Source: Watersipora subatra (taxonomy: Eukaryota > Bryozoa > Gymnolaemata > Cheilostomatida > Watersiporidae). From it: a stretch of 64,000 nt of DNA. Made by a program: the position numbers and the translations under genes. Below the pieces are notes generated by a model. It saw nothing but the letters and a program-made list of their open reading frames with translations. It was not told where the DNA came from and did not search any database. Shown here in pieces: positions 21,841-64,000 of the stretch. Within the stretch, counting starts at the first letter, position 1. Every line of letters begins with the position of its first letter. The stretch is taken from the NCBI RefSeq assembly GCF_963576615.1, contig NC_088711.1, positions 18,198,182 to 18,262,181 on the forward strand, in the 5' to 3' direction.

Positions 21841-23389
21841 ATTAGAAACAACAATTATTCGTTCACTAAACGATTACAAAACGGCGTTGAAGTCTCCAAC
21901 AGGCACTGACCTTTATGCGATCTTGAATTATCTCAGAAATATAAACAATGGTTTCGTATTAAATATATACTGCATTTTAATGTTATGCAATAATATTTAT
22001 TTTAAAAAATAACAAAAAAATACGTAAAATAATTTATTATGTTAAATATTTAAACTGCAAACTAATGCAAATTTAAATTCAAGCTTCAAATTATTGGATT
22101 CGTGAATATGCAGAAAGTTACTAAGCTATAAATTTCCAACGTAACAAAAATCACCATTCATTACAAGTTACCCATGTTATATAGTCATAATACCGGCCTT
22201 TACTATAATAAATAAACGATACTTAAATTACATCAGGCTAAAATGTAGTTATTTAAACCTGTTAAAAATATAATATTCTGCTATGATGGATTTTATTATA
22301 ATTAAGGTTATTAGTAAATCATAAATACACGGAGTAAAACAAGCATTGTGCACAGAGAGGTTTGCAGGGTACAAATGTGCCTTACTTTTGTGTACACCTA
22401 GAAAATTTATGTATGTTTACGCGGTGTTTTTTGTATTTAGTTTCAGGTTCATTTAACTTTTTTGCGTGTTTCTGCCAGTCCACTGTTTGCAAGGTTTGAC
22501 CTACATATGCGCCTTCTTTTGTGCTATGTTCAAAGATTTCGTCTTCTATAACTTAGTTTCTTGACATATTTTTTGACACAATTTTTTTTATTTTGTGACA
22601 TGAATGACGTTATTCTAAGTATCTAATGCTAACAACATAGAATTTTGCTCTTAAAGGCCATATAATATTCCTGTCATCATTAAGAGACACTTGGGGCATA
22701 TTAGTGGAAGATTTATGTTTATAATGCACATGTTGTAATAATACCTGTGTTTATAATAACATAAAAAACTTTTTTCTTTATCACGGTGAAACTTTGTGTT
22801 CGTATGTGTAACCAACACAGCACAATTATATTCTCACTGACTGTCAAAACTATAAGTCAACTTCATCCAAGGACTGTTAGCAGAGGACTGGTCTCTTCCT
22901 CATGCAGGCAGTAAAACAGTATCTCATTGGTCAGTGTAATTTGGTGCCATCTGTCACGTACACAATTAATAAGGGTACGCATGACCTATGTGTTATAAAC
23001 AGCCATTCTTATAAAAGTGCACATAACCTATGTGGCATGTTGCAGTATAATATAATTCTACATGTATATGTAGTACTACCTATGTGCTAAAATACTAAGT
23101 ACGTTTAGTGTACAGCCTAAAAATTCATAAATGCTTCATTTGAGACGAACAAAAATAGTTGTGTTATTGGCTAATCAATGCCTAATTAAATTTGCGCTCA
23201 ATATAAAATAATAGCTTTATAAATCATAATGTTTTTGCTTCAGTGTCTGCAAAGCAGTTAAGGTTGCAGCACATCAATTCTGTTGCAGAGATAAATTAAA
23301 GATGGTAATATTATTGTAGCTGATTCTGCACAAGTGCATTTGCCTCTCGACTAGCACTCGCACACCGTTAAATCTCGGTCCTCTCAGCT
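21841..23389. promoter_or_regulatory. Divergent intergenic region of TEX261 and TRABD
   Basis: About 1.55 kb separates the two start codons, which point away from each other. It must hold both promoters and 5' UTRs. No TATA box, CpG-rich core or conserved element stands out in this very AT-rich stretch. Confidence 0.5.
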
Positions 23390-26300
23390 ATGGCAGAAGT
23401 TTTTGGGGAAACCTCAGAATCAGTAGCCGACAGTTTGCCGCGCACATGTACAATTGTTGAGAAAAACGCAGAGAGAGAAGTGTATATAGTAGGAACAGCT
23501 CACTTCAGTAGAGAGAGTCAAGAGGATGTTGGGATCGTAAGTTTATCTATTTTTTACTTGCGTGTTCCAAATATGTTGACGCTGCAGGCCGGTGTTTTTT
23601 GTGGCTGTTTTGTGACACGAATTATGTTGACAGACGCATGTTCATGTAGTTTAATACTTGCAGGTGATGCAGACTGTTCAACCGCATGTAGTCTTTCTTG
23701 AGTTGTGTAAAAATCGTCTTGGAATTCTCGAGCTGAGTGAGGAGAGGGTTCTTGAGGAGTCAAAAGATGTTAGCTTCCACAAACTTCAGCAGTCAATAAA
23801 GAAGGTATTACAGTTTACCTTAAACTTTCTGTTCTTTGTTTGATAATTAATTAACAAAATTAAATTAAAAACAAAATTAATTAATTACCTCAAGCTCTCA
23901 AACCTTTGTTGGCGAACTTAATTACATGTAGAATACGTAGCAAATTTTATTAGCACTTTTTATTAAAAACTCACTTTACCGAGCATCTCGTTGTTGATTC
24001 GTGCTGTTAGCAAGCAGCCACACTTATGTTGGAATGTGCTAACCAAATGCCAAAGCAAGCACTTTACTAATATTTGAAGTTTATATTTATCATCTGTTAG
24101 CTACAGTCCATGTGCTTGACTATAGATTTATTATATCTTTGCCTCAATGCTGCCTGCAATTGTCCTATAGCGAAAGGTTTTTTGAGGCAAATCAATCTGT
24201 TCTGTAGTTAGCTATCATGTCATCACTAATTCTATCATATAAAATAACTTGTTCCTAGGTATAGTTACACAGCAAATTTTAGATATTATTAATCACGAGG
24301 TTGGACACTACTTCAAACTCATCGTCAAATATTATTTAGTGATGGAAGTGAGTGACATTATCTTGTTTTAGAATGGTGTAGTCAGTGGCCTAATGCAGAT
24401 ACTCCTTCTTAATCTCTCCGCAAAAATCACAGAAAGTTTAGGCATGGCTCCAGGTGGAGAGTTCAGAAGGGCTTTTGAAGAGGTAAATATACACAAACTT
24501 TACACCTCCATTTATGTAGCAAATAGGTCTCTATAACATACAAATTATGTTGAGATTTCACTCCTCACGAGTTGGTCAGTTTAACTGCGATATTTTGCTA
24601 CTAAACAAGCTATGAAATTTTTTAAAATTTATCATATCAGTGCATAGCTTACCAGTTCTTAGTGGGATTGGTTGAACTCATGCATATGTCTATCTCATAC
24701 CAGGATGTTAAATAATGGTAACTGCTGCAGTATGGTAAAGTGTTTCAGCTAATTACAAACCTGTACATGCCTTAATGCTACAGCTTTGTCAACAGTCTTA
24801 ATGTTGTATTTTAGTCATTACGTACAACTCCTTTTAGCTGTATGTACTTACGTATTACTCTATTGTATCTGTGTTTGTAGTCCGGCGGATGACATTTTTA
24901 TGACAGATGCTATCGATCAGGGCATTTTGTTCGATGTTTTGAGGCAAGCTGAAGGCTTCTCTGTTGACGATACATTCTACTTATTTACAGGCTAGAAGAA
25001 TTCCACACTGCAAGGTTGTATATGGAGACCGTCCTATTGGTATTACCTTGCAGAGAGCTATAGGCAGTCTGTCCTTCTTCCAGAAACTGAAGTTTGGATT
25101 TAGCATGATTACCTCAGATATAGACTTGAGGTGAGAGCTGATCCTTGCATTTTTCTTCTGTTGCTGAGATACTATGATAGCAAAATTACTATGATTTTAT
25201 GAAAATCATCTCTGCCCAGTCTGTAATAAATACGAGCATATTATTAAAGAATAATGATTGTCAATCGAGAGGTCATCTTGATATTGTTGTTTTTGTTGTT
25301 ATAAATGAAAATAGTTTCTCGCTTTCTTGAATGCAATGTTTTTAGAAGTCAGACCTCACCAAGTTCATCTATTTATGACATAATCCACCCCGCTCAAGCA
25401 CTTTCCTCGGTATATATTCTTGTTATTATTTTAGAAGGCTAAACTTTAGCCTAAAAACTTATGAAAAAGCCCTAGGTTTTCATATTTGTTGCTTTCTGCT
25501 GAATTTGTTAAGGATGCCACATGCTGTTCTCAGAACTTCACTATTTCATGGAAGGTCGGGAAATGGGCATATTATAAGATTAGAACACTAGCTTGTTTTA
25601 GTTCCAATATCGCTCATTCTAAAACTCGTCAGATTTGAGATAATAGCCATTACATGATTATGTATTTTATATGACTAGCGACATCTCTTTAAATGGTGAC
25701 GATTTTCAAATCGGCTACCTGAAAAACTGCCCTCAAACAATTAAATCGGCATGTCGTGAAGCTCTAGCTGCTCTTAGTATGTTTCATATCGAGACATAGG
25801 TGAGTGCTCAGTATTCCATGGACTTATTCAGGTAACATTGGCTTTGTATAACTTACGGTCTTTTCTCTAATGTAGCCCTGAGGATATTGAGAAATGCAAA
25901 GAGAAGGACATGTTGGAACAGATGCTTACAGAAATGGCTGGGGAGTTTCCGAGTCTGACCAGAGTATTTGTAGACGAGAGAGATGTGTTTCTAGCACATT
26001 CTCTTAAACGTAGCACTCAAGTTCAGCTTGGCCCTGCGGGTATGTCAGCTTTAGTTCTTATTTTATGAAAGCATTAATACTAATTACGAATGTGATTTCT
26101 TTCTCATCATGATGTAAAATAGTTGACTGTCCTGCTTCTTATAAAATCTCATCTTTCATCCTTTAAATGGCTCCGAAATATGATCTCTACACTTTTTGCT
26201 CACTACTTAGTGCACTAGCCACTAACCTTTGTGGAGTAAAGATCAGTGAAAATATGTTCATTTCACTACTGTGAAACCTTTTACTATTGCAGCAAGCTGA

Positions 26301-27678: not shown

Positions 27679-29814
27679 ATTAGCCTAATTTTTTTGTACA
27701 AGGACTAATTTAGTTCACAAGCTGTTACCTCCTTTCTTACAATGTTTTCATGTTTTTAAAACTTTATTCTTCTATTTTCAAGTTTTTTGTTGATGAGTTG
27801 TTATCATAAATTACACGCACATTTATTGCCATAATGCAACCATTAATTGCCATTTAATGATAAATTGTGAATTATCTGAATGAGTCTTCCTATAGCAGCT
27901 GTTGTATGATGTGGAGTAAGCTACGAGTGGTTACAATTTTGATTATAAACTTTTGTATGCGCTATTCAAGAGAAGAAATATGCATATTAATCACTTGGTC
28001 AACCACTTAAACATGACTTGTTAAATTTATGAAGACTTCCCAGAATTTGACTAGCTCTTGTAGTATGCTGATAATATTATTTTCGCTCATGTATATTATC
28101 ACTATAACCTTTTGTCACATATATTATGTGGTGAAAGGAGTATCATAGTGATAATAATTTGCAGAACAATATATTCATTCAGCCTATAAATGCTATCCTG
28201 TTATGGGTTACTTTGAGCTTGCAGCAATGAGGAAGAGGCATTAGTTATGAGAGCTGGGTCAGTAATCTGGGATTTGTGCTCACCCGCTCAGACGAAACCA
28301 CTGAAGACTGGGCAGTCTCATTATTCCTATTTGTTACTGAGCAGGAGTGTATAACATGAGCCTTGCATGTACTTCTATTGTAATTTACTGAGAGAACGAC
28401 TTGACGTATACGATGGATGTTTATACGTATAGTGCAGTTATGCATGATTAAATATTTGACACTTGTGTCTCTAAACTGAAGGTTAATAGTTTTCATGTAT
28501 GATATGCAAACATCACCTTGCTGTGAACTAACCAGAGTTACTGCTGCTATCACAGTCATCATTGCTCTAGGAAAGGAAAATTGATGTTTTTGTTATATGG
28601 TAGTAGGCGCAAACCTAACGTATATTTTATGGTATTAACTTGGTTCTAGTAAATATCAAATCTGATACTTCACCACTGTAGGCAATAAAATACTATAAGC
28701 AAAGATGGTTGAAGACATTCAGTATAACACTGAGCAACAGGAATTAGCAGGTGACTGAATACATAGATGTCGAAAGACACAAAGTTGGTTCAGCAAGGGC
28801 CATGAAAGTCTTTAATTGAGATTGGCCTACACCCCTACAATGTAGTTGGAGCGTTGAATGATTTAGAACCTAGGTTGAATCATTATATCATAATGCCTCC
28901 TGTCTATACCTAGTCTCAGCTATAAATGGGAGACTGTAAGGAAAAACCCAAACAAACATGACAAATATTAGACACACCAGTAAAAAATACCATAGAAATG
29001 TCTATTTACAGGAATATATAATCAGTAGGAAAGATTAGTAGCAAACTTAGTAAAGGTTTGAGACCACACGCTATCAATAAAAACATCTGGCATGTCAAAG
29101 CCTCTCTCTATGGGAATGCCTTGTGAAGATAAAACATTACCAGTCAGTGGTTCTCAAGGGCCACAACTACTCCTTCTCTGATACAGCACCTGTGATCCCG
29201 ATCAGCTTCAGCAAAGCTTTGAATGTTTTACATGGAAGAAGCCTAAAATCACCCCGGCTTAGTGACAAATTTTTCATTAAATTTTGTTGAATCAGACGAA
29301 CCGAGCTATATAGTAGTTGTACTTACAACTTGAGAACTTATACAGTACAACTGATATTCTCGAATGGAAAGCTATATGAAAGTGAATATGCAACATTCTA
29401 GACACAGATGATAAGCTCCAATTTAATTTAATGCTTTTAAGAGACTACAATAGCCATATACAAGTATGTACAGATGACCTTATAATGTTGGATATCACTA
29501 CAATCACTACAATACAAAGCATATAGCATCATGCTCTCCTAAAGCAGGTGGCATTATATAAAGCATTATAAATACCATTAGATCCCTCACAAACCATATA
29601 GCATCATCTCGCTATCAAAGCATATAGCATAATATTCATCACAAAGCTACAGTTATGTAGGTTTAGCTAGCTTTCCACTGCTAATAGATCGAAGCGAACT
29701 GCGAGAGTCAATTAAGGAATCCTAAGCTATGTTGTTTCACGGAACTTTTTGAAAGCTACTGACAGATGAATTTTATACGCATCTATACAGATAAATCTTA
29801 ATGTTTCTTTGTCA

Positions 29815-33472: not shown

Positions 33473-34966
33473 CCCTTTAGGACTGGTAGAGCATAATTGG
33501 CCTTCGGTATGCAGAGGACCTCCTGATTTGTTTGTATCGCTAAGATTGTTTTCTGAACAACTTCCTCAATCTTTAAGACTGGAACAACTTTGGGGTACCT
33601 AAAAGATTGTAAGCAGTGTTCATGTTATGTACATATTTTATGACCAAGATATGCAACATCAATGTTGCAAAATACAGAGAGAGAAACGCTGAAATATCAA
33701 TAACTTTGTGTGATTCTTTTAAGGGACTTATTTCAAACAAAATACAACAATGTTTGTTTGTTTTATTTCATTAAACGAAAGTAAATACCTGTGAGAAATG
33801 AAAAAAAGGTGCAACGAGGATCCACATAAGCAGTAACATAGCTAGTCATGGCTGTGAGCCTTGGTTGGCGGTTTGATAATTTATTTAAATGAAAAAATAC
33901 ACAGCGACTATTTGAGTGAATCAAGAGGTTGCTTGAGACTTGATTTGAAGTGATTAAAACTGCTTATTTTTCTGATGTTAGTTGACAAAGAGTTCCATAC
34001 TGCCGACACTTGAAACATGACCCGCCTATTACCCGATGCAGAGGAGGAAGGTGGAGGTGGTAGAACCATTAAGGAATGATGTGTGTAATATGTAATCAAT
34101 GGATTAGTGTTTCTAAAAGTATGGAAGGCTAAAAGAAAATTACGAAATTCGTAAAGTGTCTGGATGGGAAGAATTTTAGATTTTTAAATAATCCAACAGT
34201 TACTGATGGAAATGTTGCTTTTTGTGATAAATGATGCAAAGCAGACGTTTTTGTTTTATGACAATTTTGTTTAAAAATGACCTTATGCAAAATGGCCTGA
34301 CTGAAGCACCCACTATGTTGAGAAGCACCCACTATATAGAGAAGGCATTGGACAGCACTTTTTCCTGTTCCAAATCTTTACTATAATAAGAGCCGTCTCC
34401 ATTCATAGCCACACTAAGTGCGTTAGGAAAAAAGATCACCTGGCACAGGAATCGAACCCGAACTAATAGATTCAAAGGCAAGTACACTACCACTACACCA
34501 CTTAATCACCTTGACCTATAACAAAATAATTATGGATATAATGATTACACATGACAGTCTCTCACGGCTCACAGGACTGTTAGACTGCTAGCCTATATAA
34601 TTTTCAGCCAGCCCCTGTCAGGAATTGTCAGCCCCTGTCAGAAATTGAACCTTTACTCAATATACTAAAGATTTGCATGCCGCAATTAAAATGAATCCAT
34701 GTACTTGGCCTCATGACATATTGCAGCCAGTACTAGGCTGTTAGAGCCTTAGTACAACCAGAGGTAAGGGCCAGCACTCCTTAAGACCTCGAAACACACT
34801 CACGCACATGCTGACATGTGAACAGGTAGCAGGAAGAGAACACCTTACTTTGTATATATTCTGCACTTGTCAAGCATTGGAGTGTCGACAAATGATGGAC
34901 ATACAACTGTAGTTTTGATCGACTTTTGTTCGACGTGCAGCTCCAGTGTCAGTGCTTCGGAAAATC
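33473..34966 (-). CDS. SDR16C C-terminal exon cassette (exons 5c and 6b)
   Basis: Two exons lie 3' of the stop of the 311-aa SDR. Exon 5c (34849-34966, 118 nt) encodes GFSEALTLELHVEQKSIKTT then VVCPSFVDTPMLDKCRIYTK. Exon 6b (33473-33598, 126 nt) encodes YPKVVPVLKIEEVVQKTILA then IQTNQEVLCIPKANYALPVLKG. Both have good splice sites, and their phases match the main gene: exon 4 (GCTGTTG) can join 5c, 5c joins 6b, and 6b ends in the same phase as 6a. Frames are open with conserved residues, so they look functional. I could not find a matching terminal exon before 32.1 kb. They are an alternative 3' end of the main gene or the rest of a partial tandem duplicate. A LINE fragment and a tRNA-like repeat sit in their intron. 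Confidence 0.75.
33880..34380 (-). mobile_element. LINE 3'-end fragment (CR1/Jockey-like RT C-terminus)
   Basis: The minus-strand frame from 34099 to 33908 contains VMFQVSAVWNSLSTNIRKIS and FNHFKSSLKQPL, the family's typical C-terminal RxxFxxxxVWNSLPxxIR...FKxxLK motif. The preceding frame (34332-34129) looks like its upstream continuation shifted by a small indel. It lies inside the 5c-6b intron of the SDR locus. Confidence 0.65.
34438..34512 (-). repeat. tRNA-like sequence (SINE head or tRNA pseudogene)
   Basis: On the minus strand TGGTGTAGTGGTAGTG resembles an A-box and GGTTCGATTCC is a perfect B-box, about 35 nt apart, followed by TTTTTT. The acceptor stem does not pair, so it is not a good functional tRNA gene. 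Confidence 0.5.
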
Positions 34967-36253: not shown

Positions 36254-39200
36254 TCAATCTGATTTTAATGGTTGCCTTCCAGTGAACTGGTCCATTGAGT
36301 TAGCTGTTCCTGTGTATTTCTGGAGGAGCATCGCGGCTTTATCAGGCAAAAATCTACAACATTTAATCAACATACAGCTTTAAATTTACCCAAATATGAG
36401 CATTATCCTGTATAGTGATCAGTGCAGTCGTATCACTCACCCCTTAAGAGCAACGAGCGAATAAATAACTTTGGGAATGTATAAGGTCCTCTGGTTAGTA
36501 AGAATTGCATCCGTTATCTTACTGACAACAAAGTCGGTCTCCAAAATGGGTAAGATACTAGGGAACCTGCAACGTGGAAAGTAAGACAGGTAATTAAACT
36601 CAGCATATGTTATACATCCTTAATTTCATGTTCTGATGTACAGGAAAACTGAGAATATGATTGTCACAAAAATAGTCCACCGACCAGCATGACTCACAGC
36701 CCTTGTAGCTGTAAAAATGAGCTGAGAAGTTTACCTGCGGCTGTAAAATTCATGATTGATAATTAATACAACTGAACTAAACATTTCTAAAACTACCGTA
36801 TTCTACGAACTAAAGGTCAGGTTTTTCAGTGCAGTCGAGGGTGCGCCTCATACTTCGGAGTGACTTTTGCAGGAAATTATTGACACATTACCGAGCAGCA
36901 GAAAGAAAAGTTAGAGTTGGTGAGAAACTTGAAATGGAAACTGGGAAAAGGCGGAGGCTACTCTTATTGAAATGAAGAAAACAAAAGTGTCAATTGCAGG
37001 CTAAAAGCTAAGTGGCCGATTCTTCTACCTCTGCTGTTAGTGTTGTTGAAAAGTAGCACCGTTGACGAAGATTTCATTGGATTGACACAGATAATTGACA
37101 CAGATAATTTCTGGCAAATTTCTTAGCATGCTATCATGCGAGAGTTATTGGAATAACTCTTAGCATGTTATGCTAGCACGCTCAGTTGTGTCATCATGTC
37201 ATGTAGTGTAAGCTATACCGTTCAGCCTGTTGTTGTATCTATTATATTTTTAATTTGTCCGTTATTTAAAATTTAAATATGTCTGTTTTTGTTCAATTTT
37301 ATCAAATAAATTTTCCCAAACAAATTTTCCCAAAAAAACTTGACTTACACGCCAGTACGACTTATATATGGCTTTTTCTTCATTATTATACATTTTAAGG
37401 CTGGTGCGACTTAAGCCCAGAAAATATGGTTCCTTTAAGAATGTGGGTTCGATGTCCCTCATCTAGTTTTTTCCTGTCCATATTTATTTGGTTACCACAT
37501 CAAACAGGTATGTCCTAGCTCAAATAATACTCTGCTCTTCAACAGCAATGGTCAATGATAGGGCTGCCGGTACCAGCGGCATACCTGAAGCACTATACAA
37601 AACATCTTAGATAAATATGCTAGCAAAATTTATAAAAATAATATTTTTGTGAACTTTGGAAAGTAAAAAATAACTTTAAAAAAGCTTATAAATTGTATTA
37701 CGTTATCTACAAACAGTTGGATGATAGAATTGTAAGGAAAAGCATAATCAATAAATAATGAACCGTTGGGTTTTTACTCACATATCTAGTGATTATCATG
37801 TAATAATCACCCACTCAGCAAGATATAACAGCAGTAAAACAAGCCTTCATGAACTACTATGTTAGCCTGAGGGAGTTACAGTAAGATATACTTTAAAGGT
37901 GTACCTAGTGGATGCGCCATCAAAAAGCCCTGTTTTGACAAAGAAGGTGCACACAGACGTCGTTTCTATGGACTTGTGCATGCTGTTCAGCTCGACACAC
38001 AGCGACTCCATAAAGCCTGCATATAGAACAGTAAGGGACGCATAACTCACCGGCTCTTAAATCCGTCAAACAGGCCAGTGTTGACACAGTAAGGACCAAC
38101 TACGGTAGTGTCTATATTTCTGGCTGCTTGCACCAACTCAACTGCGAGAGACTCAATGAACCCTGAGCAAACATAGAGAGCAGCGGGTAATGAGATGACA
38201 CCAATTGAGCTTCCGAGCAGGAGAGCAGACAGTGAAGAAAGCAAAAGTTAGACAGGTTACACAATGTCATAGCATGAGCTGTTAGAGCTGGATCACCTGA
38301 GCAAACTGGTATTCACAAATAGCCTGTGGTATTAGTTAGACAAGGTAAAGGTTGACTAGCTGAGCAGACACTAGAACTGTTAGTAATATAGCCTGTGGTG
38401 CTGATTAGACTAGCTGGGAGTTGACTAGCTGAGCAGACACAACTGTTAGTAATAAAGCCTGTGGTGCTGATTAGACTAGCTGAGAGTCAACTAGCTGAGC
38501 AGATACTAGAACTGTTAGCAATATAGCCTGTGGTGTTGATTAGACTAGTTTGGAGTCAACTCACTGAGCAGATACTAGAACTGTTGATAATATAGCCTGT
38601 GGTGTTGATTAGACTAACTGGGAGTCGACTAGCTGAGCAGATACTAGAACTGTTAGTAATATAGCCTGTGGTGTTGATTAGACTAGTTTGGAGTCGACTA
38701 GCTGAGCAGATACTAGAACTGTTAGTAATATAGCCTGTGGTGTTGATTAGACTAACTGGGAGTCGACTAGCTGAGCAGATACTAGAACTGTTAGTAATAT
38801 AGCCTGTGGTGTTGATTAGACTAGTTTGGAGTCAACTCACTGAGCAGACACTAGAACTAAAATGGTTTTGTTAGTGAGACTAGCTGGCGGCGGACTGACT
38901 GAGTTCAAGTACTAAGTGTGTAGCTGCTGACTAACTCACTAACTGACGTGCATAGAATTGATTACTCAAGTTGCCAAGGTAACAACTGAAACATTAAATA
39001 ATACCAGAGAATATTAATTTGCACTGTTTACCTACAAATTTATTTTATATAGATTCACATAGATGAATTTTTAAATAAGCATTTATCAGTTTCTGAAAAC
39101 ATTAACCATGCATCTTGTAAAGCCGAAGTTTCATCAGGACATAGAAAAAAGAGCTTTTTACTTAATGTAACAGCAGCAGTTGATCGTCAAATGCTAACTT

Positions 39201-42200: not shown

Positions 42201-45200
42201 ACCTCAACTCAGTTGTTTCAACTGTAAGATGAACAAATTGAAGCTTTTTTAGGTCTGAGTTCTCAGACTGTTAGCCTATAATCGTGCCAGCCTAAACAAA
42301 CTGCTGCGATATTTATTCAATTAGTTAACGATTAACAGTTAACAATTAGTTAACAGTCAATCACTTAACGATATGTGAAGTGCTAAATAATTGCACTTTC
42401 CAGACCCATTCGATTCCTGGAGAGCATCTGCACAGGGAGAGCAGTTGTAACCATCTAGTCTTCTTCTAGGTGGTAACATCCTACCCTTAGACACCTTTAC
42501 ATGTTATTTTGTATATGAACTACACCTTTGAACCATGTAGTCCATGGCCACATCATGTGATCATATGGGTAATAGGGTTGTCGAACCTGTACAGGATGGT
42601 ACCTATACCCACTAATATCTTAAATCAAAGCCTACTAAGCATAATTCACTGACATTGCTGAGAGATTCGTAGGAACCTCCCACCAATGCCTCACACATGA
42701 TATGACTAATTCTCTTACCAACAGCGGCGAACTTGCTGGCGCAGTAGTCAGCCAATCCGTTTACACCTACAAGGCCTGCTGTACTGGCAATGCTGACAAT
42801 GTGGCCATGATCCCGTTCTATCATAGCTGGGAGAAAAGCCTTGGTAGTCTACAACAACACCTTCATATTAAATAATCACAACGATAAACAAATGTTGTTC
42901 AACTAATCAGCTACTAAGGCATAGAGTAGTGATTCTTTCTTAAATTAGCTTAAGACCCAACCATCAGCACCTAGTACTGTTGTAAAATGCTCTGCTCCTT
43001 ACACTGTACCTTCATCAAACTCACGCACAAGACAAGTGACACTACTCAGCTGTTTATGGTACAACTACCTGAACAACTGCCTTTTTCTTCTTGGTGTTTA
43101 CATAAACAAATTCCTTATAGACAAATTACGAACAAAACTTACAAACAATTGATTATTCGTCTACAGTGCCGAACAAATAGTTGGCACATACTATCAGAAA
43201 CGCATGGATTCTTTGTACTTTTTGGATTTGAACCACTGTCAAGTTTTTACAGATAATTTTTTAAAACTATACATATATTCTAATTCTGTATACTGTTAAT
43301 AGTTTTATCATTTTTAGTCAAGGTAGACATCTTTCAAGTCTACAAGGTAGACACCATTTAAGGTAGCATATCTACAAGTATCACCAATAGTTGCATTTTT
43401 AATAAAAAAAACGTCTCTGATCCGAACTCCCTAATATTCTTTCATTACAGGTTTGAACAACTCTTTGTAATATCACAGCCCTGAAAACGGTCATTGGATT
43501 GAGGAAATTAGCTTTACCATATGGTAGTATTTGGCAATCTTCTTAAAATTTGAGTTACAATGAACGTTGCTGACTAAACGGAGAGAAGATTCAAATTTTC
43601 CTTTGAAAATAGATTAGTTGGATGCCTGAGTGTCTAAGCATACCACTGATATATAAATACCCATAATATCTGGATGAGAGACAACCATATGTTGAGATAA
43701 CAAATTTGGTTTAAACTAGCCAATTTAGCATTCTCGTCCAGACTATTTTGCCCGGCATTGTTAATATGGTATTTTTGAATTCCCTATGCTTAAGGGAAAT
43801 GAGTATGGAACAGATGCATAAGATGTGGGGTCTGATCCTACACCCCTACTGATTGTAGGAGGTGTAGGATAGCTTGTGCAGTCATTATATTACATGATAG
43901 TGTACTGAGTATAACTAGAGTCAGGTGAGTGTTCATCGAGTCATTAAACAGTTATTAGTTAATGATCTCAATTAAAGACAACTAACAGCTTGTCGCATAA
44001 TAAATCTCTTCATGGACTCATCCACGTGACATCCTTTAATCAATAGAGTAATTACTTTGTCTAAGGCATCTTGGTGAGAGCAGTATGTGGAGGATAACTC
44101 CACGTTTATGAATACATAAATTAAATTTATGTATGAATTATGTTTATGAATTAAAGGTTTCAAGATCCCTCATGATTTGTGTCGTTTTTCAAAGGACAGC
44201 TCCAGGTTTTCAACTCTCTTGTCGGCTCTTGATTTATCTCCCTTGCCAGCTCTGAGCTGCACTAAGGAGACTTCAATAGCCGAAGCAGTACTGACTGCAG
44301 CATTAGTATATGCTCCCTTACTTCGGTTCGGTTGAGCACTCTGTGAGAGGTGCGGCACTATTAGCCTTAGTGCAAAGCTCATTATGTTTGTGATTCGAAC
44401 ACTTTTATGTCAGCATATTGACCTTCTTAAAGTGTGTGGGGCAACTTCGTTGTTTCATAACAAAAAGTCAACTCTCATTGGCAATAAGATTTATCTCCCT
44501 TGTTGGCTCTAAGTTGCACTGATGAGGCCTCAATAGCCGAAACAGTACTGTCTGTGGCATGAATATATATGCATGTTTCTTCATTTTTTCACACATGCTC
44601 CTCTTGGTGTGCATGAGAAAGCACCCTTAGTAGGTAGGTGAAAGAGTGGTGGACTCACCCAAAAATGCGCCATAGCGTTCACTTGCATGCTCTTCTCAAT
44701 AAGGGCATCTGGACAATGAAGGAAAGTTTTTCCCGTCACTATTCCAGCGTTGTTAACAAGGATATCAATCACACCCACCTCTGACAACACCTGCACAAGA
44801 AACACTCAAGGCTATGAGATCGGCTGTAGAAGAGACAAACAATGCTGTGGATACACCTGCACTAGAGACCAATTTCTAGAAGACAAGCCTGTGGACACTG
44901 ATTATGGTATCCAATTTACAGATTTTTTTAAATACAACGCTTTGGCTCTTCAAACCTTTTGTGCTTGGAGAGGGCATTTGCACCTTTTCTAATCAGATAA
45001 AAATGGAATAAACATAAACATAAAACTACGCATACCATATTTTATAAAACTTTTACACCCAACAGTAAAAGTAGTTCACCACCATTAGGTTAATTGTGGG
45101 ACGCACTGGTGAAGACCAGCATTTAGTTATGATATCACAAAGTAAATTACTGTGCTATATTTTTAATAATTCAGCTGCAATTTATGTCTTGATTTCACAA

Positions 45201-48200
45201 AACTCATTTATGTACATTCGCCCTCAGAAAATATCGAGAAACCATGATGCGCACGAATGAAAGAAAATAAAAAAACAATACAAAAACACGTATGTCCATT
45301 TTATGAATGCTACTGATTGATCATTGAAAACAGAAAATAAAAGCTAAAATGCAGCAAGAAAGCACCATGCATTTACAATAACAGGAGGGAAAGCAACTCG
45401 TTAGGCTGTTTTCTTAAGATATGATAAGATATGGTCATAAAAGACACACATAAAATCAAATGCCATGGATTAACTTTCGTAATATATCAATATATATGAT
45501 TATACAGTCAAACCTCAGCTTACATCAGCTCACCATACAATATTTTCAACAGAAGCTGTAAAACTTGAGAAATATATGTATGTCACAAAGTAATTTTCAA
45601 CATGCAGGGTTCAAAATTTCATGAAACATTTTAAATCCCTGCACATATACTGTATCTAGTTCTCCTTCATAGAGTGTGATTCTGCAACATTCGAATAATG
45701 TTCAACAGTGCTTCACACCTTTCTTCTTTAGTTTTAAAATCATTTACATTTCCATAAGACGAGTGTGAATGGTAGTCGGGCTGAAGAATGAAGGTAATAC
45801 TTGGAATGGAGACAACGAATAATAAGAAATTGAACAACTATACTTTGGGTTAATCTTTCAAAACATCTACAAAGACTTCTGGTAGTCATCATGAGAACTA
45901 CCAGAAGGCTTTGTAGATGTTTCAAAAAATTGATCAATGAGGAATGAATGAAGAAGAAAGTGATGGTGAAGAAACGAATGCTTGCAATGAGTGAAGAAGA
46001 TCATGACAAGTAAAAACGATATTTAAAAAATAACCACGATCAAAACATTATAGTTAAATCATGTTGGTTTAAACTTCACCTTTAGCAAGTTATTAAACAA
46101 ATTGTGTGCCTTTACCAGCAACTTCACCCATTAACCATCCCTCCTCTCAATCATCAAGGTTCATCCTGTTTTTACTATAGAGGCAAAGTGAGAGCAAATA
46201 CCTCTTTTGACTGATTTTCAATTTATTTAGTTTCGTTATATAATTTAATACATAATTCTATATAATACATGTCCTAATGCCATATATAATTACCTGCAGT
46301 ATTGCTCATTGTCTTATGGTCTGTGAAAAGAATTAAACAAAACATTTTTTAGGAATATTTCTAAAATATGAAACAAAATTTTCTTCAATTTTGAATGCTA
46401 CAACCCAATCCCAATTTGTTTACCTGGTCAGCAACTTTGTAGACATCTTCCCGTTTGCTCAAGTCAACAGTATAGGTGTCAGCGCGTCCACCAAATCTCT
46501 TTATTTCTGAAGCTGTAGCCTCATTTCCTTCTTCATTAATATCCCAGAGCACAAGCCGGCAGCCATGCTTAGCCAAGCTGATAGCCAGAGCCCGCCCAAT
46601 TCCACTTCCTAAAACAAGCTATAATATGAGAGTGATTCGGACAGGAAATGAGCAGCAATGATGCAATTATTCTGCGACAACTGAAATTACACACTCATCA
46701 AAATAGTTCTATTGATATTACTGAAACCGCTGCGTGATACAACTCCATTGTTTTGATAATGTAAAAATTGGATATACGGATCATAATTGAGGTAAAATGA
46801 CAGGACTTGCCTAACAGTGTGTCGAGACGAATGTTGATGACCAATAACAGCAGAAGATATGTTAGAAGCAGAAGATATGCTAGAAGCGGGCGATATGTTA
46901 GAAGCAGGCAATATTTTAGAAGCAGATGATATGTTAGAAGCAGACAGACGATATGTTAGAAGCAGACAGACGATATGTTAGAAGCAGACGATATGTTAGA
47001 AGCAGATGATATGTTAGAAGCAGACGATATGTTAGAAGCAGACGACATGTTAGAAGCAGACAATATGCTAGAAGCAAACAATACGCTAGAAGCAAACGAT
47101 ATGTTAGAAGCAGACGATATGTTAGAAGCAGACGATATGTTAGAAGCAGACGATATGTTAGAAGCAGACGATATGTTAGAAGCAGACGATATGTTAGAAG
47201 CAGATGATATGTTAGAAGCAGATGATATGTTAGAAGCAGACGATATATCAGATAAGATCTTATGTTATAAGTTTGGATTACAGCTAAACATGTGAAAACT
47301 GACTAGTTCACACTATATTCATATGTAGTGTTAATCACGAAAACTCTGGTAATCGTTTGTAATAAAAGTGTTCACACTATCACAAACCCATCAGTGTTTC
47401 CATCAGCGAATAGTCCATTGTATGGCGTTTTTCCTCATACTACGGGATCACGAAAACAATAAAATACTAGCCCCGCAGCAACCATCATGAAAGAAGATAT
47501 AGATCAAGCAATCCACAACGACCAATCATCATCGTTGAAGCAGTGCACATTGCATAGGCTGTCGTTGATGCTGAGCTAACTATCGGAAAAGTTTGACAGC
47601 TGCAAACTTTGCCAATGTGTCTGCGATGCCTCGATGATGCCATCGGTTACGGTGCATATAGTCAATGAATAATCGCCGAGAGGACATCGCTGACAGATGG
47701 CGATATAGTGTGAATCAGCCTTAAACCAACCATCAACATACGTATGTCTATAAGCTTTTTTATGAAAACTTCAAAACGACTGTCAGGTATCTTTTATTTA
47801 ACTCGAAATAAAAAGTATAAGCAATTGTTTGCAGTAGAATGCCGATCAGAGGGTGCATAATGCATTGCACTGTCGGTCTTATGATGAACAAAGATGAAGG
47901 CATAACCCAGGCAAACTATTGAGCCTTAGAGAATGTAGGTCAACTGATGAAAGAGATTAGCAAGCGGTCCACTCTCACTTCTTTTATATACACTAAGCGA
48001 CCAAAGTCTGCGCATTATCAGTTGCCAGTAAGGTTAGGAGATGATGTAGTCAGCTTATCTAACAGGATGTGTGCTAACTTCAGCACGCTGTGTGTTATGT
48101 TATCTTTCAACAAAATTCGCTTGACATATTCTATCAACCGGTGCAATCTCGAACAGCTACCAAAGTTGCTCGCAGCTGGATTTTCTTACCTGTTGCTAAA

Positions 48201-49426
48201 TGACCTTTTCAATATGAACTTACAAAAAATTTTAGCCGATTTCATCTGAAACTGTGGGTATTTTTTTATCATTTGCGATTGTTTTATGTTCGATGTGATC
48301 TGACTCGAGATTAACATCAACAAAACTTGATCAGAGATAAACTGCTCAGATCAAGCGACAGTGTAATTATGTCCATAGCTGCAAAGAGATCGATAGAATA
48401 CAGACTCGTCATGCTGCAACTTGGATGCAATATCCTACAGTGGTGATCATAATAATGGGAACACCTGGTAATTTCATAATGATCTTTTTCATTTATGGCA
48501 TAAATTCCCTTTCCCTATAATCTCAGACCATACATACTATACATAGTTGAAAAGCAAACTTTCTAGACATCTTGTCGACAACCAAAGGTGCACTCTAGTG
48601 ATAAAATCTGTTTAATGGGCACCCATTATATCCTCTCATGTCAGTCTAGGCTTATGGTGTTAAAAATGGAAGAAATTGTGTTAAAAATGGCTTATGGAAC
48701 TTAAAAACATGACCAATTAATTTTTTCAGAGCTATGTTCTAAAATTATGTCAAATTAGGTTGTGTTTTGCACAAATTTAAACAGTATTTGTTTTGGATTT
48801 TTGTACCACTTTATGCCAAAAATGCCATATTGTACCGAAATCAAACTAATAAAGCAAATATCCCTTAGTTTTACATAATATTCTTATCCAGTACATTCTG
48901 AGCTTTCCATTGATGTGCATATTGTCATAATTTACACAATACCGACGGAACAACATATGAATTAACAACAAAAAATGTGTTTATTTCAAGTGGTCCAATA
49001 ATTACCCATTATCACCACCGTATATAAACTATCGCAACAATAACAAGTGGTGATGCCATTTTGAATGTTGTTTTTTTCCGAGCATTTTAACTGCGATCAA
49101 GTTTTGTTGAATTTAATCTTGAATCAGGTCACCTCAAACATAAAACAATCGCAAGTGATAGAAAAATACTGATACTTTCCGATCGCATCTACTAAAATGT
49201 TGTGTAATTTTCACCGAAAATTACCGAAAAGCGAACCAGAAGGCCTTGAATAAACAGGCAGGATACAAAACTAACCTGCCCCAGTTACTAAAGCCGTGTC
49301 CTTTGAAATATCTTTCTTGGGAAGCCAACTGACTGGAAGGACTGCTTTGACCATTCCGCTGACTATGTAGAATAACGTCAGAAAGAGCGTTATTATCGTC
49401 TCTAATATTAGCTCGAAGTCCAACAT
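36254..49426 (-). CDS. SDR16C-type short-chain dehydrogenase/reductase, 7 exons, 311 aa
   Basis: Exons in transcript order: 49276-49426, 46424-46608, 44659-44790, 42719-42848, 38051-38162 (5a), 36441-36566 (6a), 36254-36353; 936 nt, all phases fit. Residues 1-30 are a hydrophobic N-terminal anchor; TGAGSGIG (48-55) binds the cofactor; VLWDIN follows; NNAG is at 125-128; the catalytic Ser is S178 (IAST) and YCASK gives Y191/K195. D in LVLWDIN suggests NAD preference. The C-terminus NSMDQFTGR is typical of RDH10/HSD17B11/RDHE2 relatives. Members oxidise retinol, steroids or other lipid alcohols at ER or lipid-droplet membranes; the substrate here is not predictable. Exon 5 has an in-phase alternative, 5b (37905-38016), giving another 311-aa form, and cassette 5c-6b lies further 3'. 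The start is the only ATG before the anchor. Introns carry minisatellites, MITEs and Helitron-like repeats. Confidence 0.93.
36790..37445. mobile_element. DNA-transposon relic with ataagtcgca-type ends
   Basis: The left part begins TACCGTATTCTACGAACTAA and the right part carries ACTTAAGCCCAGAAAATATG with direct words GGTGCGACTTA and GTACGACTTATA. These resemble the 'ataagtcgca' ends of common pogo/P-like DNA elements. A degenerate basic coding remnant (GTGAAACTTGAAATGGAAAC region) lies inside. Family assignment is tentative. It is within SDR intron 5. Confidence 0.35.
37905..38016 (-). CDS. Alternative exon 5b of the SDR gene
   Basis: This 112-nt exon encodes [20 protein letters not shown] then [18 protein letters not shown]. 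About half its residues equal those of exon 5a ([10 protein letters not shown]...VNTGLFDG). Splice sites are TATATGCAG| and |GTACACC, with the same entry and exit phases as 5a. It replaces the usual Pro of the V-C/G-P motif after the beta-6 strand (VGPYCV in 5a, VCPSFV in 5c) by Thr. Only 34 nt separate it from 5a, and joining 5a to 5b would shift the frame, so use of the two must be mutually exclusive. Confidence 0.85.
38335..38865. repeat. 69-bp minisatellite in SDR intron 4
   Basis: About seven units of 69 bp, for example TAGCCTGTGGTGTTGATTAG followed by ACTAACTGGGAGTCGACTAG and CTGAGCAGATACTAGAACTG. Two sub-variants (ACTAACTGGGAGTCGAC and ACTAGTTTGGAGTC) alternate, suggesting expansion by dimers. 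It lies within 170 bp of exon 5a. Confidence 0.9.
39385..39821 (+). mobile_element. Helitron-like non-autonomous repeat, copy B
   Basis: Starts near TCCAGTTATAGC (39401) and ends with the hairpin region ACCCATACAATGTCGGG, a spacer and CTAG then T. It aligns over its length with 29815-30274 at a moderate level of divergence. It lies in SDR intron 4. Confidence 0.55.
40164..40184 (+). repeat. Poly(G) tract of 21 G
   Basis: An uninterrupted run of 21 G preceded by CCC, in SDR intron 4. On the transcribed (minus) strand of the SDR gene it is poly(C) in the pre-mRNA. Confidence 0.95.
41145..41245. repeat. Cluster of perfect palindromes
   Basis: 41206-41237 is a perfect 32-bp palindrome whose half is GTTACTATATACTGTA. 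The core TATACTGTATACAGTATA also occurs just upstream (about 41169-41188), and ATAATACCGGTATTAT lies near 41153. It is in SDR intron 4. Confidence 0.9.
44165..44570 (-). repeat. Duplicated segment in SDR intron 3
   Basis: Two minus-strand segments about 290 bp apart encode related peptides: [20 protein letters not shown] (near 44240-44300) and [20 protein letters not shown] (near 44490-44550). The source is unknown; it may be a fragment of a LINE ORF1 coiled coil or of a host exon. Confidence 0.45.
45857..45926. repeat. 30-bp inverted repeat with 9-10-nt loop
   Basis: The arms AACATCTACAAAG-CTTCTGGTAGT and their inverse pair almost perfectly around CATCATGAGA. It lies in SDR intron 2. Confidence 0.8.
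46848..47250. repeat. 18-bp minisatellite in SDR intron 1
   Basis: About 22 units of 18 bp (ATGTTAGAAGCAGACGAT). As 18 is divisible by three, the plus strand reads as repeated MLEADD and stays open. It lies in the intron of a minus-strand gene, has no splice context, and is not a gene. Confidence 0.9.
47300..47722. mobile_element. MITE with TTCACACTATA ends
   Basis: Left end AGTTCACACTATATTC and, inverted at the right, GATTCACACTATATCGCC. The right end is followed by TTAA, as in the MITEs at 15.7 and 16.3 kb. No coding sequence. It lies in SDR intron 1. Confidence 0.6.
48255..49175. mobile_element. Possible inverted-repeat element in SDR intron 1
   Basis: ATCATTTGCGATTGTTTTATGTT then GATGTGATCTGA near 48268 recurs inverted near 49110-49160 (AGGTCACCTCAAACATAAAA then CAATCGC). 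ACAAAACTTGATC also occurs in both. The same words appear near 20626 and 30617, so the family is dispersed. Confidence 0.45.
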
Positions 49427-61389: not shown

Positions 61390-61437
61390 GATAAAAAATA
61401 ATAAAATATATAAGGTCTCAGGGGATGAATTAATTCA

Positions 61438-64000
61438 ATGTTAAAATCTATTAGGCCTAAATGCATTACCTGGAATGCCAATGGTCTAAGAAATAGAACA
61501 CACGAACTTAACCTATTAATCTACAGCTATTCCCCTGTCATCATAGCTATAACAGAAACCAAACTGGATACCAGTGTGCAAGATGGTGAATTAACAAATC
61601 TTTACATGATCTACCGCCTAGACCGGACTAAAGGCCCAGGCTTAGGCTGTGGTGTCCTTATAGCTATCAAAAACAGTTCCACTATAAACGTATTATGTGT
61701 AGATGAACTTGTGGATTCAGAAATTCTTACTCTCAAAATAAATATACATAATTTTACCTTCCATTTTTCTTGTTTTTACCATCAACCTTGTGTAAAAAAC
61801 ATTGATGGCCCACTCGACTGAGTTGAATTCCTTGCCAGCCCATTTTTTGTCATTACCGGTGACTTACCTGAGATACAGTGGCCTGGTAAGACCTTGAAAT
61901 CCAGTCGAGACAGGAAAATGCATACTGATTTTCTTCACCTCCTTCAAACACATGATCTCCCCCAACCTGTTGATTTTCTAACACATATTAAAGGAAACAC
62001 CCTAAACCTTATGTTGTCCTCCATGGAAATTAATAATGCCCATGGAGAGCCAAGCACATCTGACCATTTTTATGTGCACTTTGAGGTGAGCATACCTGAT
62101 AGTCTCAAACAGGCAAACCTCTCCAAACTATTGCCCGTTTTTAAATTTAAATATAGCCAAATTAATAACACTGAACTAACAATCCAATCCCAAGCCCTTG
62201 ACAGACAAATAACTAATCTCATATCAATCAAATCCAACATTAACGACATTTGGCAATTCTTTAAAACTGGAATTATGGCAGCAGCTAAGGCCTCTATCCC
62301 TCATTTTCCCCTCAATAAATGCAAACAGAAATTTTGGATTAAACACACCAACATTAAAGAGATTCATAAAAGGAATATATTGTGTAAAACATTTAAAAAG
62401 TGCCCGACCGCCGACAATAAACAGATGCTCCAGCTTCAGATTAAAAAATGTAAAAAACTAGTTAGACAAGACTATAATAGCTTTCTAAATATCCATTTCT
62501 GCCTTTAATTGACGGAAGGCAACAATAAATCTCTTTTTAAATTCATATCTTCAAAAAGAGGATCCAGTAACACAGTCAAAACCTTGCACGACAACACTGG
62601 CAAACCATCTGATAATATAGCCAACACCTTTTCTGACACGTTTTCTTCCATTTTCACAGTTGATAATAGTGCTTATCCCATTCCCCCAACAAACGAAACT
62701 GTAGCAAACTCCACCAAACAGAAGACCAAGGCAATAACTGTTTCCAACGATGGTGTCTTAAAACTTTTAAAACAACTTAACCCTTCTAAGGCTGCTGACC
62801 CAGATGAACTGAGCACCTCGTTGCTGAAACACCTAGCCTCCTATATTGCACCCACTTTTACCAAGATAATGCAACACTCTTTATCCAACCATACTGTCCC
62901 TAAGGATTGGAAAACGGCTACTGTCATACCCATTTTTAAAAATAAAGGTAGCAGGCTTCTGCCAACTAACTATCGTCCAATCTCTCTGACATGTGTACTT
63001 TCAAAAACCACAGAACACATAGTCGCACACTCCATCCGCAACTTTTTAGACTCTATTGATTTTTTCCATGACTGCCAACATGGTTTTCGTTTGAGGAGAA
63101 GCTGCGAAAGTCAGCTAATCCTCACAACTCATGAACTCATTCACTATGTTTCCATGGTGCGCAGTACTGCGAAGCAGCCCCCTCCGAAGTCGAGGGGATT
63201 GTACGTTTCCATGCTGCGCAGTGGTTTTCAGCAAATACCGCAAATTAGCCAGAGAAGAGAAATTGTATAAATCGAATCGCCTGATGGAGAAATAGAATCG
63301 ATCACGGATACCGAACGTCATAAACGGTCTTTTTATGATTCTGTCGTCATACTTTTATTTACAATACACATTCACAAGGTTTTACAAACCGTAACACACT
63401 TTTTACATAGTAATATATTTTTAATAATTATTTTTAAGTAATATATTATTTAAACGTTAATTTAGGACTTGCCACATATTTTTCGAAAAGTGTTGGCATC
63501 GATAACAAAGTCCAGGAAAGTAATCACCTCATCATCCTCGTGAATGCAGACCTTAATTAAATATAGGAGAAAGAAGATCGGAAGAATAGTAAAAAAAAAG
63601 ATTAGCAGGACAACCTTTGTACTAGTTTATGGCCCTCGAAGAGTCCGTCTCCACGGCATGAGAGCTATGCGCAGCCACTGCGCAGTCGCTGTTTCCTTGC
63701 TGCGAATTTGCACTGGCTTCGCACTGATCAGTGCGCAGTGATTTCAGTGCGAAGACGCCGTTTCCATGATTCGGAGATAGCGCAAATCCGAAGCACTGCG
63801 CATCATGGAAACATAGTGATTGAATCATTTGATACTGGAATCCAAGCTGATGCCATTATCCTGGATTTTTCTAAGGCCTTTGACAAAGTGTCCCACAGCA
63901 AACTTTTATTCAAACTTACCCAAACTAATCTAGACAGAACAATTATCACCTGGGTCGAGGATTGGTTGAAGGATCGCTCACAAACCATTTTTATAAATGA
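61438..64000 (+). pseudogene. LINE ORF2 (AP endonuclease and reverse transcriptase), broken and partial
   Basis: ATG at 61438. The endonuclease shows CITWNANGLRNR (catalytic Asn), IAITETKLD (catalytic Glu), GCGVLIAIKN, GDLPEIQW (a P-E for the usual N-D/NxPxIxW) and TSDHF. The reverse transcriptase shows VPKDWKTATVIPIFKNKGS, NYRPISLTCVLSKTTEHIV, DCQHGFRLRRSCESQL, then after the insertion ADAIILDFSKAFDKVSHSKL with the first catalytic Asp. Stops lie in frame at 61819-61821 (TGA) and 62506-62508 (TAA); the frame is otherwise continuous. The YxDD box is beyond the window. Confidence 0.85.
63142..63818. mobile_element. 677-bp CACTA-ended non-autonomous DNA element
   Basis: The ends are CACTATGTTTCCATGGTGCG and, inverted at the right, CACTATGTTTCCATGATGCG. 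ATT is duplicated on both sides (63139-63141 and 63819-63821). Variants of the end (GTTTCCATGCTGCGCAGT near 63206; GTTTCCTTGCTGCG near 63690; GTTTCCATGATTCGG near 63761) recur inside, like the subterminal repeats of CACTA/EnSpm elements. No transposase is present. Without it and one ATT the LINE reading frame is continuous (HELI then ESFDTG). Confidence 0.85.

Follow-up and report, generated by a model that had tools for sequence, protein, structure and literature searches.

Can one dehydrogenase gene change the nicotinamide and substrate side of its enzyme by choosing between two exons that lie only 34 nucleotides (nt) apart? The question is raised by a locus of the bryozoan Watersipora subatra. 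It lies in a stretch of 64,000 nt (NCBI RefSeq assembly GCF_963576615.1, contig NC_088711.1, positions 18,198,182 to 18,262,181), hereafter the window, whose own numbering is used for all features below. On the minus strand of this window lies a single SDR16C5/RDHE2-like dehydrogenase gene in which two homologous exons, 5a and 5b, appear to compete for the same place in the transcript. We conclude, with a probability of about 0.74, that this is one gene with an old duplication of exon 5, that 5a and 5b are alternatives, that a further block, 5c-6c-7c, provides a third choice, and that the choice alters one side of the enzyme.

The translation of exons 1-4, 5b, 6 and 7 agrees in 311/311 residues with the NCBI protein 'epidermal retinol dehydrogenase 2-like isoform X1'. 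The predicted protein carries the motifs TGAGSGIG (TGxxxGxG), NNAG and YCASK (YxxxK) and a predicted N-terminal helix, and its nearest sequences in the PDB are HSD17B13 and HSD17B11. These features place it in the SDR16C5/HSD17B11/13 group of classical SDRs and make it a putative retinol/steroid-type dehydrogenase. The exon map is as follows.

49276..49426, minus strand: coding exon 1 (from the ATG), matching NCBI isoforms X1 and X2 at 100%
46424..46608, minus strand: exon 2, with the second part of the TGxxxGxG nucleotide-binding motif (gene model, NCBI isoforms)
44659..44790, minus strand: exon 3, with the NNAG motif (gene model, NCBI isoforms)
42719..42848, minus strand: exon 4, with the catalytic YxxxK, the 5′ partner common to 5a, 5b and 5c (gene model, NCBI isoforms)
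38051..38162, minus strand: exon 5a, 112 nt, phase 1 to 2 (gene model; no database entry found)
38017..38050, minus strand: spacer of 34 nt, containing the 5a donor and the 5b acceptor (GTGAGT...GCAG)
37905..38016, minus strand: exon 5b, 112 nt, phase 1 to 2 (in NCBI isoform X1)
36441..36566, minus strand: exon 6, partner of 5a and 5b (gene model, NCBI isoform)
36254..36353, minus strand: exon 7, terminal coding exon with the stop, C-terminus ...RQPLKSD (gene model, NCBI isoform)
34849..34966, minus strand: exon 5c, 118 nt, phase 1 to 2, third alternative (in NCBI isoform X2)
33473..33598, minus strand: exon 6c, 126 nt, with the entry phase of exon 6 (NCBI isoform X2)
29167..29242, minus strand: exon 7c, alternative terminal coding exon with the stop (NCBI isoform X2)

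Architecture of the exon pair

An initial annotation, made from the letters of the DNA, had described 5a and 5b as mutually exclusive exons of equal length and phase, and its coordinates prove exact, down to the AG that precedes and the GT that follows each exon. The encoded segments are identical at 20 of 38 residues, the 'about half' that had been estimated. Each exon can serve on its own, as 1-4-5a-6-7 and 1-4-5b-6-7 both yield open proteins of 311 residues. Premature stops arise when the two exons are joined, as had been foreseen, and likewise when both are skipped or the spacer is retained. This loss of frame rules out an ordinary 34-nt intron between two constitutive exons. The spacer is moreover too short for a normal intron, the predicted introns elsewhere in the gene measuring 87 to 7752 nt over the alternative joins.

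A chance open reading frame or a non-coding repeat can also be ruled out. When 5a was slid over every position of the window on both strands, the best partners were 5b (20 matches) and 5c (15), all others reaching 10 matches or fewer. An exon-5 profile built from 107 non-Watersipora homologues and applied to 5662 open stretches (at least 12 residues) of a 102-kb region found four copies, namely 5b (E 9e-15), 5a (E 1e-13), 5c (E 7.5e-12) and one in a neighbouring paralogue (E 9e-7), with the next-best stretch at E 0.56. A DNA search of the whole genome located the pair at one place. By an approximate splice-donor weight matrix, the 5a donor (CCG/GTGAGT) is the strongest of the nine scored, at 10.1 bits, and the 5b donor (TAG/GTACAC) the weakest, at 2.8 bits.

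How could inclusion of both exons be prevented? Branch points tend to follow the pattern yUnAy. The sole match in the spacer is CTTAC; counted from the 5a donor its A is at +19, and exon 5b follows at a distance of 16 nt. The remaining adenines before the acceptor AG stand at +4, +8, +27 and +29, and the sole AG ahead of the 5b acceptor occupies +4/+5. A spacer branch point for 5b is thus predicted within 29 nt of the 5a donor, with 19 nt as the best candidate. The published steric limit between donor and branch point is about 50 nt, and for OGDH exons 4a/4b distances of 25-41 nt are enough, according to PMC7969005. The steric-hindrance design proposed in the initial annotation is consistent with these distances.

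On this model exon 4 would be spliced to 5a or to 5b, never to both, and from either on to exons 6 and 7. The 34-nt spacer would be too short to act as an intron, and the broken frame upon joint inclusion would act as a second lock. As a third choice, exons 5a/5b-6-7 would be skipped and 5c-6c-7c used. That the exclusion is steric in vivo we infer from sequence, and the choice between 5a and 5b would need some regulator. The mutually exclusive architecture and the steric-hindrance design appear well supported because four features point the same way: a spacer that is too short, the predicted branch-point distance, the incompatible frames, and an old duplication with both copies under constraint.

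Age, constraint and competing readings

The age of the duplication can be read from the codons. Exons 5a and 5b agree at 25, 25 and 10 of 38 first, second and third codon positions. Over the first 33 codons, which are gap-free in all four copies, the counts are 23, 23 and 9 (Fisher p 7e-5, with positions treated as independent), and nonsynonymous divergence (dN) is 0.41 with synonymous divergence (dS) beyond estimation by NG86; dS is undefined for two of the six pairs of exon-5 copies, 5a/5b included. Only 5 of the 18 codons for identical residues in this stretch are the same codon. Synonymous change between the two exons is saturated, thus the duplication is old and both copies have kept their protein. 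A recent duplication is ruled out.

Constraint can also be seen in the residues retained. In 47 sequences from outside Watersipora, 15 columns show conservation of 90% or more; of these, 12 are kept in 5a, 12 in 5b, 10 in 5c and 9 in the neighbouring paralogue. In a neutral simulation, 0.2 unconstrained substitutions per site left an exon intact in about 1% of runs, intact meaning that the frame, the splice dinucleotides and at least 12/13 conserved residues survived (Val being accepted for Ile in one column); the simulation begins with the present-day sequences and bounds recent decay only. Together, the simulation and the conserved columns imply that neither 5a nor 5b is a long-dead relic.

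At the level of annotation, NCBI isoform X1 is exactly 1-4-5b-6-7 and isoform X2 is 1-4-5c-6c-7c. The junction from 42719 to 38016, whose absence from every transcript the initial annotation had named as evidence against itself, is present in the X1 model. The doubt about exon use is thereby shifted from 5b to 5a.

Several observations weigh against the model. Exon 5a is in no database entry found, the Watersipora isoforms X1 and X2 included, and the cluster of X1 at 90% identity has one member where a 94%-identical 5a isoform would be expected. In a search of short predicted proteins with the 5a fragment, 8 of 16 candidates passed, none of them from Watersipora, the best reaching 58% identity over nearly the whole query and up to 66% over part. 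The same search with 5b passed 11 of 20 candidates (up to 68%), again none from Watersipora. The database thus apparently holds no short Watersipora fragments of either region, which makes the absence of 5a there little informative. In addition, 5a has Gly for Cys222, a residue invariant in the 47 other sequences, and the one model of Bugula neritina has a single version of exon 5. Exon 5a itself contains two more yUnAy matches, which make the branch point of 5b uncertain; a branch point located within 5a would also render 5a-5b joining impossible. Finally, the frame lock is imperfect in other genes: PMC5740500 counts 377 human clusters of mutually exclusive exons (60%) with frame incompatibility, and reports joining reads in 83 (22%) of these.

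Would the regulated choice rather lie between the 3′ ends of the gene? Isoform X2 has exons 1-4 in common with X1 and then continues through 5c, 6c and 7c. This third version had been missed, so that the two-way choice first described holds for the pair 5a/5b and is incomplete as a picture of the gene. Searched by tblastn, the window showed no promoter and set of exons 1-4 that would belong to the 5c block alone. It may be that 5b-6-7 versus 5c-6c-7c is the dominant, regulated decision and 5a/5b a minor one. Such an arrangement would be compatible with the conclusion above while shifting its weight, and we place it somewhat short of even odds. The two 3′ ends are those of the two annotated isoforms. 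Identity between the 5b and 5c isoforms is 80%, compared with 94% for 5a and 5b. All six 5-to-6 combinations are in frame, since 5a, 5b and 5c have the same phases and 6c has the entry phase of exon 6, and the AlphaFold2 (AF2) model of X2 is confident. However, this leaves the retention of 5a unexplained, and X2 may itself be a product of gene prediction that attached an orphan 3′ block.

The 3′ blocks do have a past of their own. A neighbouring paralogue (P0004; contig positions 18269040-18276236, plus strand) lies in divergent orientation, the first exons of the two genes being about 21 kb apart, and one exon-5 copy was found in it. In a tree of the N-terminal half it is sister to this gene (100/99). 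In a tree of the C-terminal half it groups with 5c-6c-7c and not with 5b-6-7 (92/97, under the star threshold). The conflict between the two trees points to separate histories for the 3′ blocks: either both would be ancestral, or one would have been copied between the neighbouring genes.

Alternatively, only 5b (and 5c) would be spliced today, 5a being recently retired and intact merely in appearance, and the pair a relic of duplication. The choice of 5b and 5c in the NCBI models and the lost Cys222 of 5a lean in this direction. However, the frame of 5a is open and its donor outscores all others, it keeps 12 of the 15 conserved columns where about 1% survival would be expected after modest unconstrained change, and in the exon-5 tree it is 5a, not 5b, that groups with the Bugula exon (80/94, weak, in a poorly resolved tree of 42 columns with 1 starred branch of 23). 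We consider retirement of 5a unlikely, and we infer the use of 5a in splicing from its constraint and its splice sites.

Exclusion might also be achieved by RNA pairing of the docking/selector type, or by regulators acting on a minisatellite in intron 4, with the 34-nt spacer being incidental. Intron 4 contains inverted repeats, and the minisatellite holds five of the nine TACTAAC branch-point-like heptamers on the minus strand of the window.

38319..38858, minus strand: minisatellite in intron 4, 69 nt x 7.9, ending 156 nt upstream of 5a

However, the 361 nt around the pair fold no better than shuffled sequences (z 0.29), which lends no support to a special RNA fold at the exons. The spacer and the frame incompatibility would already prevent joining, with no extra device needed, and exclusion by pairing or by the minisatellite seems to us quite improbable. 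An assembly artefact from collapsed or mis-joined haplotypes, which can create exon pairs in general and has no direct point in its favour here, has next to no chance, given that saturated third positions make the copies neither alleles nor a recent misjoin, that the assembly is described as PacBio HiFi in its genome note, and that the pair occupies one genomic place.

The exchanged segment of the enzyme

What would the exchange do to the protein? In the AF2 model of the 5b isoform, which has a predicted local distance difference test score (pLDDT) of 93.2 with 85-88 in the loop part (93.0 for the 5c isoform), exchanged residues 200-237 run from the C-terminal half of helix 189-211 through strand 217-223 into the beginning of the substrate loop. 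The initial annotation had named the beta-6/alpha-6 region and the start of this loop. Strand beta-6 and the loop start are borne out, whereas 'alpha-6' is imprecise and corresponds to the C-terminal half of helix 189-211. In the published description of HSD17B13, helix 183-207 belongs to the dimer interface, and residues P218 to T239 make up the substrate-binding loop. The Pro of 5a and 5c, which is Thr in 5b, aligns with this P218 (the chain numbering of the alignment runs one ahead of the paper's, Tyr 186 being Y185).

This hinge Pro is retained in 5a (as GP, not CP) and in 5c. Its loss from 5b, already remarked upon in the initial annotation, is indeed unusual: of the best 120 of 7810 homologues listed (scoring was confined to the 7995 candidates sharing the most words), 118 have the motif, and 117 of these carry Pro, the exception being the 5b isoform. 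The residue is common in the subfamily without being a strict mark of it. The Thr of the xTG that follows the hinge is kept in both 5a and 5b. In the 3-alpha-HSD/carbonyl reductase of Comamonas, substitutions P185A and P185G are reported to raise kcat, K(androsterone) and Ki(NAD), and are interpreted by the authors as faster cofactor release. We regard P185 as the probable equivalent of the hinge Pro.

The isoforms would hold constant the coenzyme fold and the catalytic Ser-Tyr-Lys half and vary the nicotinamide/substrate side, since the dimer-interface helix is exchanged at its end, along with strand beta-6 and the hinge of the loop that binds the substrate. Exon 5a is predicted to give a conventional enzyme. 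Exon 5b, with Thr for the hinge Pro, may give looser NAD(H) binding and altered turnover and/or substrate fit, and would not necessarily be dead. Different enzyme behaviour between the isoforms is predicted, and the place of the exchanged segment makes a different substrate range plausible. Tentatively, and with the odds nearly two to one against, 5a/5b/5c could form a three-position switch of the SDR catalytic side in which 5b is a selected altered form. In such a switch 5b may stand for faster NADH release, another substrate, or a catalytically poor lipid-droplet or dimer partner.

The remainder of the window holds no Rfam family at gathering cut-offs. Three other features were noted.

61429-63998, plus strand: open stretches that we take to resemble the endonuclease/reverse transcriptase of a long interspersed nuclear element (LINE), by their motifs
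33911-34183, minus strand, between 5c and 6c: open stretch, presumably similar to the C-terminus of a LINE reverse transcriptase
23372-26053, plus strand: exon-like stretches presumably resembling a TraB-domain protein (GTAHFS motif)

Comparison with known systems

The mechanism is known, the gene and the site within it are apparently new, and the short spacer and the third 3′ block are both unusual. Alpha-tropomyosin and alpha-actinin are named as cases of mutually exclusive exons by steric hindrance in reference titles of PMC7969005, and PMC5740500 assigns 57 (9%) of 629 human clusters to this type. As described for OGDH 4a/4b and similar cases, the Watersipora pair consists of adjacent homologous exons with less than about 50 nt between donor and branch point, and joint inclusion is frame-breaking, as it is in many of them. 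It differs from OGDH in that the whole spacer measures 34 nt, whereas the OGDH branch points alone are 25-41 nt away, and in that the branch point here is predicted. The locus would extend steric mutually exclusive splicing to an extreme of 34 nt, in a phylum in which splicing is little studied.

As for the enzyme family, titles and abstract starts of the open-licence literature searched contained no mutually exclusive pair in the SDR16C5/RDHE2, HSD17B11 and HSD17B13 group, in agreement with the initial annotation, which knew of no such case in SDR16C genes; nor did they contain mutually exclusive exons in any SDR gene. Compared with SDR16C5/RDHE2, HSD17B11 and HSD17B13, exon 5b stands apart in its lack of the conserved hinge Pro. 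If both exons are used, one dehydrogenase gene would alter its nicotinamide/substrate side by splicing, and the pair would let the substrate-loop hinge of the HSD17B13/RDHE2 group be studied as a natural experiment. PMC9969402 calls both the physiological function of HSD17B13 and its disease-relevant substrate unknown.

A related exchange is found in Mya arenaria, whose annotated epidermal retinol dehydrogenase 2-like isoforms X1 and X2 (P0014, P0021) belong to the same subfamily and swap a homologous last segment at a point that corresponds to the exon 6/7 boundary of the Watersipora gene. The swap there is confined to this last segment and does not involve the exon-5 segment. It is a hint that 3′ exons have been duplicated repeatedly among the SDR16C5 genes of lophotrochozoans. 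The Watersipora locus itself suggests that genes of this family can duplicate blocks of exons 5-7 and exchange them with their neighbours.

The closest functional likeness is to COQ-2, in which exons 6a and 6e are likewise mutually exclusive, of equal length (134 nt in COQ-2) and located in an enzyme. In helminths, annelids and molluscs, according to PMC7434440, these exons remodel the enzyme core and switch the substrate, toward ubiquinone or rhodoquinone synthesis. COQ-2 is an unrelated enzyme; its function was tested, whereas that of 5a, 5b and 5c is predicted from sequence, and the third version with its own 3′ exons is particular to the Watersipora gene. If the three-position switch is true, it would be, within the literature searched, the first mutually exclusive exon set that tunes the active site of an SDR, and a bryozoan parallel to the substrate switch of COQ-2.
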